Source: Fibrobacter sp. UWR4 (lineage in GTDB: Bacteria; Fibrobacterota; Fibrobacteria; Fibrobacterales; Fibrobacteraceae). Taken from it: DNA of 64,000 bases. The notes under the pieces were generated by a model, which worked only from the letters and a program-made list of their open reading frames with translations, did not search any database and was not told the origin of the DNA. Positions 42,752 to 48,528 of the stretch are shown here, one piece after another; the stretch's first letter is position 1; each line of letters opens with the position of its first letter. A program made the translations under genes and the position numbers. The stretch is taken from positions 1 to 64,000 of the forward strand of contig NZ_QGDU01000007.1 of the NCBI RefSeq assembly GCF_003149045.1. The letters run 5' to 3'.

Positions 42752-43780
42752 CTAAACCAACTTTTCTTTTCCAGCTAGAATTTCTTTAATACGAGTCATG
42801 AGTTCATCAGAAGCACCCGCTTCTCGAACAGCATCCAACGTAGAGGAGCAGCCCTCAGCAAGACCTTCCGCACGACCTTCCGCACGACCTTCCGCACGGC
42901 CTTCTGCGCGGCCCTCAGCAAGACCTTCCGCATGGCCTTCCGCATGACCTTTCCTCTTCGCTTCTACGGTATGATAAGCGATAAAATCCAAATGTTCGTC
43001 ATCGGTCATCATATTGTTAACCTGATCCTTTAGAAGTTGCTTATTTGCGTTACCCACAAAAATCCTTCGTAAAGCGTCCGCAAAGACTTCATCGTCAAAG
43101 TTCGGCAACGATTCCGCCTGCCCCGCATTCTTTATGAGGTAAAGCCATCGGTCCTCATCGTTTTCAAGAGAACCCTCTGACTTTGTGAACTGCGATAAAT
43201 CAAGCATAATATACTTGATTTTCTCTGTAACTGTCAAGCCTTCCCCATTAGAAATAGACCATACATCATGATATCCCTTTTGACGCGCTATTTTGAAATC
43301 GCAGACCCATATAGCGTAGGTCGGCGGGAAATCGTAACGTCTAGCCTCGCGTTCAGCCCTCTGTTCCTCCGTCGGTTCCAAAGGGAACAGTTCCTTGTAC
43401 TTTTTATCGTATTCATACTTTGACTGAATCACAAACGCGCTATGCTGCAACAAAATCCGTTCCGTAAAATTTGTAGGCGAAACCTTTTGCATTTCGACAT
43501 TGATGCCATAACCGCTTTCCGTGGTGGCACGAATATCAAAGCGAAACGACTTTGTTTCCGGAAACAGGATGTTTAGTTCCGGATTCCGAATTTCAACTTT
43601 TACAATCCGTTCTTTTTCTGCCAGATGCAGGACGCCGTTCAAGAAGCTTACAAGAGCAGCCTCATCATTAAGCAGAGCCTTAAAAGCGGCGTCATAACGG
43701 GGATCCAGGTAGGTCCTGTTTTTAAGTTTTTCCACAAGTTCCGCTTCTTGCGGAGTGAATACAATTTTCTCTTCGGACAT
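42752..43780 (-). CDS. Rpn-family (PD-(D/E)XK) nuclease/transposase-like protein
   Basis: PDDEXK_2/Rpn-type protein of 342 residues; relatives raise recombination and cut DNA. Seen: YLDPRYDAAFKALLND near 21-36, the catalytic-type FDIRATTESGYGINVEMQ near 81-98, and PPTYAIWVCDF near 148-158. The C-terminal part carries eight four-residue units of the G(H/L/R)AE type, coded by 12-base repeats, and then a short helix. GGAGG 7 bases upstream fixes the start at 43780. Not part of an insertion sequence here: no terminal inverted repeats are seen. Confidence 0.85.
   Translation of the reverse strand: MSEEKIVFTPQEAELVEKLKNRTYLDPRYDAAFKALLNDEAALVSFLNGVLHLAEKERIVKVEIRNPELNILFPETKSFRFDIRATTESGYGINVEMQKVSPTNFTERILLQHSAFVIQSKYEYDKKYKELFPLEPTEEQRAEREARRYDFPPTYAIWVCDFKIARQKGYHDVWSISNGEGLTVTEKIKYIMLDLSQFTKSEGSLENDEDRWLYLIKNAGQAESLPNFDDEVFADALRRIFVGNANKQLLKDQVNNMMTDDEHLDFIAYHTVEAKRKGHAEGHAEGLAEGRAEGRAEGRAEGRAEGLAEGCSSTLDAVREAGASDELMTRIKEILAGKEKLV
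42852..42955 (-). repeat. 12-base coding tandem repeat in the Rpn gene
   Basis: About eight 12-base units encode GHAE, GLAE or GRAE. Unit number can change by slippage without a frameshift, giving length variants of the protein tail. Confidence 0.8.
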
Positions 43781-43811
43781 AGTAGCCTCCATTTTTTTGA
43801 AAAAAAGAAAA

Positions 43812-43832
43812 ACACCTGATTGACTCAGGTGT
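43812..43832 (-). terminator. Terminator after the second peptide gene
   Basis: ACACCTGA/TCAGGTGT stem followed on the minus strand by TTTTTCTTTTTTTC, 108 bases after the peptide stop. The bases 43871-43916 between hold several TTTTACAG words and a palindrome TTTACAG-AAAAA-CTGTAAA. Confidence 0.75.
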
Positions 43833-43940
43833 CTGGAGACTATTAGTAACGCTCGGGATGAACAATAGCTTTTACAGAAAAACTGTAAAGGGTCATTCTG
43901 TAAAACTACTGTAAAATTCGAGATTTTCGACAATCGGGAA

Positions 43941-44102
43941 TTAAGCCTTGCGGTCCATTTCAGGATTGTAGAGGCAGCCGAATTCGTCATCGTATTCGGT
44001 AACGCCTTCGGGACCGTCAGAAGCGCCAAGCAGGGGGGCTTCCATCTTCAAATCAACAATATCCATCTTCGGAGCGACATATTCTTTCTTAATCATTTTC
44101 AT
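43941..44102 (-). CDS. Small peptide, second copy, 53 residues
   Basis: The gene starts 7 bases after the stop of the upstream 600-residue surface protein, with GGGGA just before its ATG. The peptide begins MKMIKKEYVAPKMDIVDLKM, continues with an APLLGAS turn, and ends with an acidic, single-cysteine tail (EYDDEFGCLYNPEMDRKA). It differs from the copy at 46059-46217 at only a few positions. The KKxYxAP...LLGxS layout resembles short leader-like peptides common in Bacteroidota. A secreted or processed peptide is likely, but no modification enzyme is proven. Confidence 0.75.
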   Translation of the reverse strand: MKMIKKEYVAPKMDIVDLKMEAPLLGASDGPEGVTEYDDEFGCLYNPEMDRKA

Positions 44103-44109
44103 AGTCCCC

Positions 44110-45912
44110 TTACTTAATAATAACCTTTTGACCCTTGTTGTAGTAGGTGCCCTTGACGGTGGGCTTGTGGTTCATCTTGCGGCCCTTCATGTCGAACCAA
44201 ACGTTGTCATCCATCTTGATTTCGCCAGTGAGAGTATTCATGGAGCCGATGGCTGTGGTACTGCCATCACCATCCAAGAATCGAATCGTAATGGTCTCCG
44301 GCAAATCTTCCTCAAGATAAGTTCCAGCAATGGACTTAGCTAAAGAACTGATACCATTGTATTTCAAGTATGCGCGCATTGGCGCGATGTTTGCTCCGCT
44401 CTTTGCCTTTACAAACTCACCCGCCGCAACATCTTTATCATTAACTTTCTTTGCAACAGAAGCAAAACCATAAATTCCAGAAGGGTTATCCCATACGATT
44501 CTTTCATAGGTTCCCATAAAAGACCAAGAAGACAACATCGTTGTTTGATCACCCTTATTATTCATCACTGCAGAAATAACAGTAGACTTGTTTCCATTAG
44601 TCGTATTAAGGGTCACAGACTCGTTTTGCTTTCCAGCGGCATCATCCCACCAGTGAGTATTAAAAGTCAATTGTTCTGAACCAGGCCAAATAATATAGGG
44701 GGTATTTGCCATAAGCCAGTCGGTTTCTGAGCCATTTTCAGCATTTCTCATCCCTTCAACATCCAACATCCAATTACAATATTGATCGCAATGTTTTACA
44801 AGCGCAATGATTTTGTAAAATACAGCTATACTCACGCTATTAACGGGAATCGAGAACGGAAGCATAATCGTAGATGCTGTTTGGAGTTTAAAATTTCTGT
44901 TATACACAACATCATCAACTACAACATCTTCAGGAATGCTGAGCGTCTGCAAGCGAGCTTCAGACTGGCCATCGATGCAAGCAGTCTTCTTGCCGTTCAC
45001 AGTCTTGAATTCAATAATGTCGGTATTTCCATCAAAGCATTCGCCTTCCGGGAATTCTACAGTAGGAGCGTCGTCCTCACCCAAGGCAAACAAAATTGTT
45101 TCTGGCAAAGATTCTAGATCTGCAGCAGAAGCAAACTTTACACCAGCAGCAGCCTTAGCTGCTACCATGGAAGGTTTATACTGCAAATAGGCTCGCATGG
45201 GAGCGATGCTTGCACCAGCTTTAGCCTTCACAAAAGAGCCCGCATTTACACCATCTTTAGCGTTAGCGGCAACGCCATAAACAGAGCCCAGATCTTTATG
45301 TCCTTCGTTCCACACAACTTGACTGTAGGTACCAACAATTTGCCAATTGCTTGCGTCTTCAGTAACAACGTTTGCAGAAAACTTCGCTGCGTCCATGGCA
45401 ATATCGCAACCAGAAATCGTGAAGGAATGTCCGCCCACAAATTCAAAGGCATAAGGAGAATTTGCAACCAGAGCCTTATTCACCACTCCGTCCTTTACAG
45501 AGGCGTTTTTCGAAACGCGAACAGTCCAAACAGGAGATTCTCCAGAACTTAAGTCAACGTAAGTATCCTTGTTACTCGCAGGATTTCCAAACTCATAAAA
45601 GTTTGCGCCAGACACAGAGCAACTAGTACCAACATCAAACGGAAGCACGATAGTCCAGTTCTTATTTTTTGTTGCATTAGTTCTTGTATAAACAACCTTT
45701 TGAACTGTAGCAGTGAACGGTTCCAATGTTTTGTATGCACCCTTCTTCTTCGCAGCTTCAGAAGCGGCGGAATCACCATAAATAACAGCAGTACATACAC
45801 CGTCAATAACCTTGATGGAGATTGCACCATGATCACCTGTTTCACAGGCAGCAACAGCATGAGTTGCACACCCCATTGCAGCGGCGAAGGTAAGAGCAAA
45901 AATCTTTTTCAT
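44110..45912 (-). CDS. Secreted two-repeat surface protein with type IX-like C-terminus
   Basis: Signal peptide (residues 1-20, cut near AVA) followed by two copies of a roughly 230-residue beta-rich module (about 30-270 and 290-545). Each module has VVY.R, a LPFD/LPFS strand, an aromatic-rich middle, a W..(V/M)GTY turn, a YG.A..AK stretch and the motif GASIAPMRAYLQY or GANIAPMRAYLKY. The end, WFDMKGRKMN..VKGTYYNKGQKVIIK (split over residues 572-600), matches Bacteroidota-type type IX sorting ends. The ATG at 45912 gives the signal peptide; upstream codons are excluded. A 53-residue peptide gene follows at 7 bases. Function unknown; probably surface display. Confidence 0.7.
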   Translation of the reverse strand: MKKIFALTFAAAMGCATHAVAACETGDHGAISIKVIDGVCTAVIYGDSAASEAAKKKGAYKTLEPFTATVQKVVYTRTNATKNKNWTIVLPFDVGTSCSVSGANFYEFGNPASNKDTYVDLSSGESPVWTVRVSKNASVKDGVVNKALVANSPYAFEFVGGHSFTISGCDIAMDAAKFSANVVTEDASNWQIVGTYSQVVWNEGHKDLGSVYGVAANAKDGVNAGSFVKAKAGASIAPMRAYLQYKPSMVAAKAAAGVKFASAADLESLPETILFALGEDDAPTVEFPEGECFDGNTDIIEFKTVNGKKTACIDGQSEARLQTLSIPEDVVVDDVVYNRNFKLQTASTIMLPFSIPVNSVSIAVFYKIIALVKHCDQYCNWMLDVEGMRNAENGSETDWLMANTPYIIWPGSEQLTFNTHWWDDAAGKQNESVTLNTTNGNKSTVISAVMNNKGDQTTMLSSWSFMGTYERIVWDNPSGIYGFASVAKKVNDKDVAAGEFVKAKSGANIAPMRAYLKYNGISSLAKSIAGTYLEEDLPETITIRFLDGDGSTTAIGSMNTLTGEIKMDDNVWFDMKGRKMNHKPTVKGTYYNKGQKVIIK

Positions 45913-46058: not shown

Positions 46059-46217
46059 TTAAGCCTTACGGTCCATATCGGGATTGTAGTTGCAGCCGAA
46101 TTCGTCATCGTATTCGGTAACGCCTTCGGGTCCGGAACCGCCCAGCAGCGGAGCTTCCATCTTCAAATCAACAATGTCCATCTTCGGAGCTTCGTATTCT
46201 TTCTTAAACATTTTCAT
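46059..46217 (-). CDS. Small peptide, first copy, 52 residues
   Basis: ATG with GGAG directly upstream, 5 bases after the stop of the frameshifted surface protein. The peptide reads MKMFKKEYEAPKMDIVDLKM at its start, then EAPLLGGSG (a Gly-Gly turn), then an acidic tail with one Cys and NPDMDRKA. It is nearly the same as the second copy, and its 3' flank is also shared (the GGAATTAAGCCTT region). Selection has clearly kept both reading frames, so it is a real gene. Confidence 0.8.
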   Translation of the reverse strand: MKMFKKEYEAPKMDIVDLKMEAPLLGGSGPEGVTEYDDEFGCNYNPDMDRKA

Positions 46218-46222
46218 ACTCC

Positions 46223-47424
46223 TTACTTGATGATGACCTTCTGGCCGTTGTTGTAGTAGGTACCCTTGACGGTGGGCTTCTTGTTCAGCTTGCGGCCCTT
46301 GAGGTCGAACCAAGCGTCCTTATCGGCAACGATTTCACCAGTGCGGGTGTTGAGCTGTGCGATGGACAGAGTGTTGCCATCTTCGTCTTCGAAAATAACG
46401 TCAATGGTAGACGGAAGTTCTTCTGCTCCAATAGAAGAAATTACCCCGGCAGCAGCCTTTGCGGTAAAGCCACTGGTACTATACTGCAAGAATGCACGGA
46501 GAGGCGGAACAGAAGCCTTAGAGCCGGCCTTAACGAACTGACTCAAAGCTACAGAAGTGTCTCGAATATCACCAGCTTTATTCGTGTACTGCACGGTTTT
46601 TGCCTTGGATGCAAAACCGAAGATATTCTTTTTATCCAATCCGGTCTTAAGTTCATAAGTACCGCCAAGGTACCACTTTCCTGTAAAACCTGTAGCCTGA
46701 ATGGAGTCAACGTTAAATGCACCAGTCTGCAAGGTGTAAGAACAGCCTGAACCCGTCTTAAAAGATACAACACCACTGGAAGAAAGAAGAATTCGAGGAG
46801 AATTAGCCTTAATAATAGAACTATTGTCCATCACAGCAGTAATAGCCCAGGAACCATTATTATTCTGCTTAATAGTACCAAGAGTATACAAAGATCCGTT
46901 TTCAAGGCACGTTGACGGAATGTCGAACGGGAAAACTACCGTCTGTTTATCAATACTCTTATTATCTCGCTTGTTAGCTCTTTTATACTCAACACCAGCA
47001 ACAACAACAGGATTGGGAATATTCACTGTGGCACGATAAATTGTGGTATCCACACCATCAGTTGCAGCAGAAGCGGAGTCTGCATAAATGGTTGCTACAG
47101 CATCATCAGACACCATATCCATTTCCACATGGATGGAGTCTTTGTAACTCCACTTGTCAATATAATTAGCATCAGTTGAATTTACGCCACCACAGGAATA
47201 TATTTTTTTCCCAAACGAGTAGTTTCTGTAACATCACAGCTTTTCTTAATAGTATCAATCTCGGCTGGGTAGAAGCTTCCGGTAACTTGGATTGCTCCAT
47301 AATCCAAAGTTTTTTGTTCAGGAGTTCCCTTCTTCACAACTTTAACGATGGTGGTATCACGATCTGCAGCGCCTGCAGTTCCTGCCATCAGCCCGATGAG
47401 AGCCAAACCAAGCAATTTTTTCAT
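46223..47424 (-). CDS. Secreted surface protein with -1 frameshift at an A7 run
   Basis: The upstream part (47424-47182) has a signal peptide MKKLLGLALIGLMAGTAGAA and runs to a stop seven codons after an A7 tract (47203-47209). From that tract the -1 frame continues unbroken with CGGVNSTDANYIDKW and the whole module: LPFDIPSTC-like strand, GTYELKTG, IFGFASKAK, SVPPLRAFLQY, and the end DLKGRKLNKKPTVKG / NNGQKVIIK. Joined length is about 400 residues. The tract is A AAA AAA in the zero frame, a canonical -1 slippery heptamer, so either programmed shifting, phase variation or a single-base loss explains it. AGGGA lies 6 bases before the ATG. It is paralogous to the 600-residue protein downstream. 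Confidence 0.7.
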
Positions 47425-47556: not shown

Positions 47557-48528
47557 CTATTTCTTCTCGCGGATGCGCTTGTAAAGGCTTTCGGCCTTTT
47601 CGGTCTCCCCCGCGTTAGTAAAGACGTGGCCTACATTTTCGGCACCGATGCGACCCTGGGAATTTCCGGCAAGCCAGGCCTTCATGTAGCATTCAAAGGC
47701 TTCGTCGTAACGTTTCTGGTTAAAATAAATCTGACCCAAATCAAGATTTAAATCAGCCTTACCCTTCTGATGACGCAAGCCTTCTTCCAGAGTGAAAATC
47801 GCCATCCAGGGAGATTCCTGCTTGACATACATCTGAGCCAGGTAGCGGCGGGCGGAAACATTCTCGGGATCCATAAGCAGGCCGTTTTCCATTTCGTTCA
47901 GCGCCTGACGGGTGGAATCCATACTGCGATAATAATAGGCCAGCGTAAAGTGAACGTCAGCGCCTGCTGTCGCAGTCATCTGCAAGGCGTTCTGCAAAGT
48001 CTTAATGGCGTATTCATAATCGCCCAACTTCTCGTAGACTTCGGCTAGGCCATACCAGGCATCCATACGGTCCGGGTTCAGCTGGAGGGCTCGTTCAAAA
48101 TTTTTCTGTGCGAGAGTCCAGTCGCGACCCTTCATGAAACATTCCGCCAGAGCAAAATGGACATGGTCCGATTCTACACCCAGTTCCACGGCGCGGTTGT
48201 AGGCGGCAATGGCCTCCCCCGCATCCCCAGCCAGGTAATAGATGTCACCCATAAGCATCCAGGCCTTCTCGAAATTCGGCAACAGCTCCACGGTACGCTT
48301 GTAAGCCACCAAGGCAACCTGTTTACGATCCAGCTGGACCATGGCATTCCCGAGATTGAACCAGGCGAAAGGTTCATAACGACCTTCGTCAATGGCGGCA
48401 CGATACAGGGGCACCGCTTCCTTGAACTTGCCCTGGTCATAAAGTTCGTTGGCCTTGAAGAAATAATCTTCGGCTGCAAAGGACGCGACGGCACCCAAAG
48501 TAATAACAGCAAGCAGTCTACTTAACAA
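47557..48528 (-). CDS. TPR protein of the TtpC-type TonB operon
   Basis: Secreted TPR protein of 323 residues (signal peptide to about 19, ASFA|AEDYF). About seven tetratricopeptide units follow, for example AWFNLGNAMVQLDRKQVALVAYKR and AWYGLAEVYEKLGDYEYAIK. It overlaps tonB by 11 bases. In Vibrio TonB2-type operons the last gene is also a TPR protein, which is thought to stabilise the complex. Confidence 0.85.
   Translation of the reverse strand: MLSRLLAVITLGAVASFAAEDYFFKANELYDQGKFKEAVPLYRAAIDEGRYEPFAWFNLGNAMVQLDRKQVALVAYKRTVELLPNFEKAWMLMGDIYYLAGDAGEAIAAYNRAVELGVESDHVHFALAECFMKGRDWTLAQKNFERALQLNPDRMDAWYGLAEVYEKLGDYEYAIKTLQNALQMTATAGADVHFTLAYYYRSMDSTRQALNEMENGLLMDPENVSARRYLAQMYVKQESPWMAIFTLEEGLRHQKGKADLNLDLGQIYFNQKRYDEAFECYMKAWLAGNSQGRIGAENVGHVFTNAGETEKAESLYKRIREKK

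Follow-up and report, generated by a model that had tools for sequence, protein, structure and literature searches.

A one-base slip in a run of seven adenines has probably turned an accessory gene for an exported protein into an OFF allele in Fibrobacter sp. UWR4, and the change appears to be recent. In the 64,000 nucleotides that we analysed (the window), this gene is broken at its only A7, the frame downstream of the break is open, and its orthologues in related species are intact (Table 1). ORF A carries the signal peptide (MKKLLGLALIGLMAGTAGAA) and ends with TTG GGA AAA AAA TAT ATT CCT GTG GTG GCG TAA, the stop codon lying six codons past the A run, as the first-pass annotation had read it. 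The continuation in the -1 frame (ORF B), for which that annotation gave about 325 residues, is indeed open down to 46223, with no further stop or frame shift after the run. It ends in the family C-terminus FDLKGRKLNKKPTVKGTYYNNGQKVIIK, similar in form to that of the intact neighbour. The run is located within the first fifth of the gene and is its sole run of at least seven over 1202 nt, so that a simple repeat is present at the frame change. An A7 is not rare in the window, which holds 30 A/T runs of at least seven, nine of them inside plausible ORFs; the ORFs around the other in-gene runs (7 to 9) are unbroken in the assembly. The large sibling gene, described earlier as having no such site, contains no A/T run of at least seven. 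No second copy of the junction was found elsewhere in the assembly. Reinitiation making ORF B alone was discarded, as the first GTG (47128) would yield a protein without signal peptide.

Table 1. Position of the split gene, its parts and its neighbours in the window.
Feature	Coordinates	Strand	Description
Split gene	46223..47424	-	1202 nt; the minus strand is the coding strand
ORF A	47182..47424	-	frame 0, 80 aa; signal peptide and N-terminal part; start at 47424
A7 run	47203..47209	-	place of the frame change; T7 on the + strand
ORF B	46223..47203	-	open -1 frame of 326 codons and a stop; encodes the family domain and the conserved C-terminus
Predicted hairpin	47161..47194	-	weak, -5.0 kcal/mol; begins 8 nt past the run; not credited as stimulator
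TPR gene	47557..48528	-	upstream of the split gene; synteny anchor for orthologues
Intact paralogue	44110..45912	-	600 aa; same C-terminal domain
Small peptide gene	46059..46217	-	directly downstream of the split gene
ORF with repeat tail	42752..44029	-	AEGRAEGRAEG-type repeat tail

The orthologue adjoins the same TPR gene in three related species, where it is always a single unbroken ORF (392 aa in G025, 387 aa in G055 and 374 aa in G105), and the N-terminus of ORF A is near-identical to theirs in the alignment. As the orthologue is missing beside this TPR gene in the eight other species examined, the gene is accessory. Frame 0 encodes a cysteine ahead of the run (SCDVTETTRLGKK), and the -1 frame encodes another immediately past it (IYSCGG); the two align with a cysteine pair of the three orthologues. 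Since both flanking cysteines match this pair, the frame change is confined to an interval of about 48 nt, and it is this interval that contains the gene's only homopolymer of at least seven. A random interval of this size would hold that run about 3-4% of the time, which suggests a placement beyond chance. Between the two cysteines, none of the three orthologues has an A7 or a slippery heptamer at the junction, the codons ahead of the second cysteine being GAA ATA GGT in G105, ACT AAA AAG in G055 and AAA GCA AAG in G025. A DNA search of 80 genomes of the same genus (one genome per species) detected no near-identical allele. As regards the TPR gene itself, a second, partial copy with an internal TAA lies near the full copy in another genome (G050:C2:83279-83953).

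Most other genomes of the genus that were searched contain relatives of ORF B, with as many as 15 family matches in one genome, and the 39 genomes from outside the genus contain none; over the 100 genomes searched, the family was found only in this genus. Neither ORF A, ORF B nor the sibling matches a Pfam or NCBIfam model at the curated cut-off, and the structure that AlphaFold predicts for ORF B is mostly beta, with a mean pLDDT of 73.5, and matches nothing in the PDB at E <= 0.001. Family members consist of a signal peptide, a mostly beta body and a C-terminus of the form WFDLKGRKLxxKPTxKGTYYNNGxKVIIK, which, we presume, recalls the surface-sorting tails of Bacteroidota proteins. In a leave-one-out comparison with 31 members, the window protein matched 35 of the 40 conserved columns. 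The claim that its -1 frame keeps all family motifs was thus nearly right, the five misses being the start Met, which is wanting in the -1 reading, and four columns of the types Y/F, A/S, G/S and Y/F.

About 50 complete members surveyed across genomes of the genus encode signal peptide and C-terminal domain without a change of frame, and the window's is the only member found split. A/T runs of 7 to 9 were found in 11 of 33 intact members (19 runs in all). The 33 members also hold 11 in-phase A_AAA_AAR heptamers, for which no shift is needed. As such runs are common in uninterrupted members, an A7 alone is no sign of recoding. Synonymous shuffles of the 33 members contained 11.7 runs of at least seven on average (sd 3.0), and only 3 of 200 shuffles reached the observed 19; this excess is mild, and relatives are counted more than once and are not independent.

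Two neighbouring genes may be described here. The small peptide gene belongs to a type of about 40-55 aa (M-x-KKEYxAPKMxIVD...LLxGSGxE), and similar peptides are encoded near family members of other species of the genus (L094 3288, L101 847, L106 2291 and L107 1681); the peptide could be a companion that is conserved along with the family. The repeat tail of the 42752..44029 ORF is, we assume, like that of transposase-like PD-(D/E)XK nuclease family proteins. In G055, a different gene of similar type is located between the two paralogues (L064 3472-4386).

The gene shows the pattern of a recent indel, since its orthologues are intact and its one lesion falls at a site prone to mutation. The 326 codons of the downstream frame contain no further lesion and agree with 35 of the 40 conserved columns, as a young lesion would predict. 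A base-calling error or a frameshift in use would go with such a kept frame as well. Under the former, the true tract would be one base different and the gene intact, and it is in keeping with this that the lesion stands alone and falls at a homopolymer. Antonov et al. assign homology-supported singleton frameshifts to errors or to recent indels (PMC3711429). However, the window was set against proteins encoded in the stretches of G036, G105 and G009 that are syntenic to it, and the 48.8 kb that full-length matches cover contain no other sense gene split between frames. Three further putative splits lie antisense to genes of the minus strand, in + strand frames, and were discarded. Indels thus do not pervade the assembly, making a general assembly error unlikely and favouring a real one-base slip, and the open ORFs around the other A/T runs of the window also speak against error. 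Illumina reads rarely miscall an A7. Published cultured Fibrobacter genomes mostly derive from such reads, five genomes of the main set having PacBio reads added (PMC6291624), and the present assembly may be of this kind. We consider a single miscall at this A run rather unlikely. If ribosomes shifted to -1 on G_GGA_AAA_AAA, in a programmed or a usefully leaky manner, they would instead produce both a full-length protein (about 400 aa) and the 80-aa one. The A_AAA_AAA heptamer is in slippery phase for a -1 shift, as was noted from the outset, and is overlapped by an in-phase G_GGA_AAA (GG precedes the A7), the direction is correct, the frame beyond is unbroken, and the hairpin is acceptably spaced. 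However, the heptamer is not kept in the orthologues, which need no shift, several intact family members have in-phase heptamers that they do not need, and no other complete member is split, although many have A7-A9 runs. The hairpin is equalled or surpassed by 173 of 200 dinucleotide shuffles of its stretch, longer stretches giving z values of about -1. Upstream SD-like elements and/or downstream structural stimulators are common in bacteria, if not always required. By the criteria of a systematic study of E. coli frameshifting, there is no SD-like element in the 30 nt upstream of the heptamer, and in that study heptamers without stimulators reached at most about ten times the background of 0.055% (PMC4066793). 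Site conservation is a main criterion of Antonov et al., with clusters of five or more frameshift genes (PMC3711429, Table 1); here, the window gene is the only split one among the complete members surveyed. The gene does share an in-phase A_AAA_AAA heptamer and the -1 direction with dnaX-type and insertion-sequence frameshifting but, unlike these, it lacks an SD-like element, significant downstream structure and site conservation, and its frame-0 product has no evident role. Frameshifting here would be at best a trace, programmed -1 frameshifting at this gene is unlikely, and we give very little credence to the production of two proteins in this way. Transcriptional slippage was also considered and set aside, the A7 being short: in many genomes, A/T runs are evidently selected against at a length of nine (PMC1088944). 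Of the three readings proposed by the first-pass annotation, which leaned on the dnaX-like heptamer, programmed frameshifting is left unsupported by the comparison, while slippage or mutation of the A run and sequencing error remain.

Slippage of the A run may also be selected and reversible, the tract slipping both ways at a high rate during replication such that ON and OFF cells coexist. One-base indels are known to concentrate in poly(A) runs of 6-8 within bacterial genes; their measured frequency is as low as about 1e-7 for A6 to A7 in Listeria inlA and as high as 1e-3 or 1e-4 for A7/A8 in Mycoplasma hominis vaa. Switches at A7/A8 or T7/T8 have precedents, among them Vaa of M. hominis and, in Campylobacter coli, flhA (PMC2831843). 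The predicted signal peptide, the location of the run near the start of the gene and the excess of A/T runs over synonymous shuffles, mild as it is, are all consistent with phase variation. However, no orthologue retains the run at this place, no other complete family member surveyed was found OFF, an A7 is short (the low inlA value concerns precisely an A6/A7 change), and poly(A) runs of up to seven are over-represented in bacterial genes generally (PMC2831843). Both known systems resemble the window gene in part. In Listeria monocytogenes inlA, whose 5' poly(A) is in frame at A7 and gives a truncated product at A6 (PMC2831843), a one-base change in this short run near the 5' end likewise truncates an exported protein with the remaining frame intact, but there the ON/OFF polymorphism has been shown within the species, whereas the window gene is known from one genome. 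Vaa (A8 on, A7 off; PMC2831843) is also exported and also OFF at A7, but its switching is known, whereas the run in the window gene is not conserved in orthologues. Selected phase variation thus appears distinctly unlikely. We are more doubtful still that this gut commensal, a fibre degrader, has a contingency locus here, in which A7 slippage would switch the exported protein of a genus-limited family, possibly with a trace product in OFF cells through ribosomal slippage on GGGAAAAAAA.

A recent one-base slip therefore remains our preferred explanation. The gene would be a lineage-variable member of the family, with a signal peptide, hit by such a slip in its A run. Ribosomes would translate the signal peptide with some 55 residues after it, cross the A7 and stop six codons on, so that the exported protein would not be made, save for a trace from unprogrammed slippage on the heptamer, and the allele would in effect be OFF. 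The change would lie in the DNA of the strain and could be reversed as often as A tracts usually gain or lose a base. The slip itself is read from one assembly, and reversible switching in the population is possible.

A frame break of this kind is an ordinary event. The two ORFs seen here are one gene with a broken frame, which has little import beyond annotation. If the tract does switch, the Fibrobacter lineage would offer a case of phase variation, in an exported family that the genus has multiplied.
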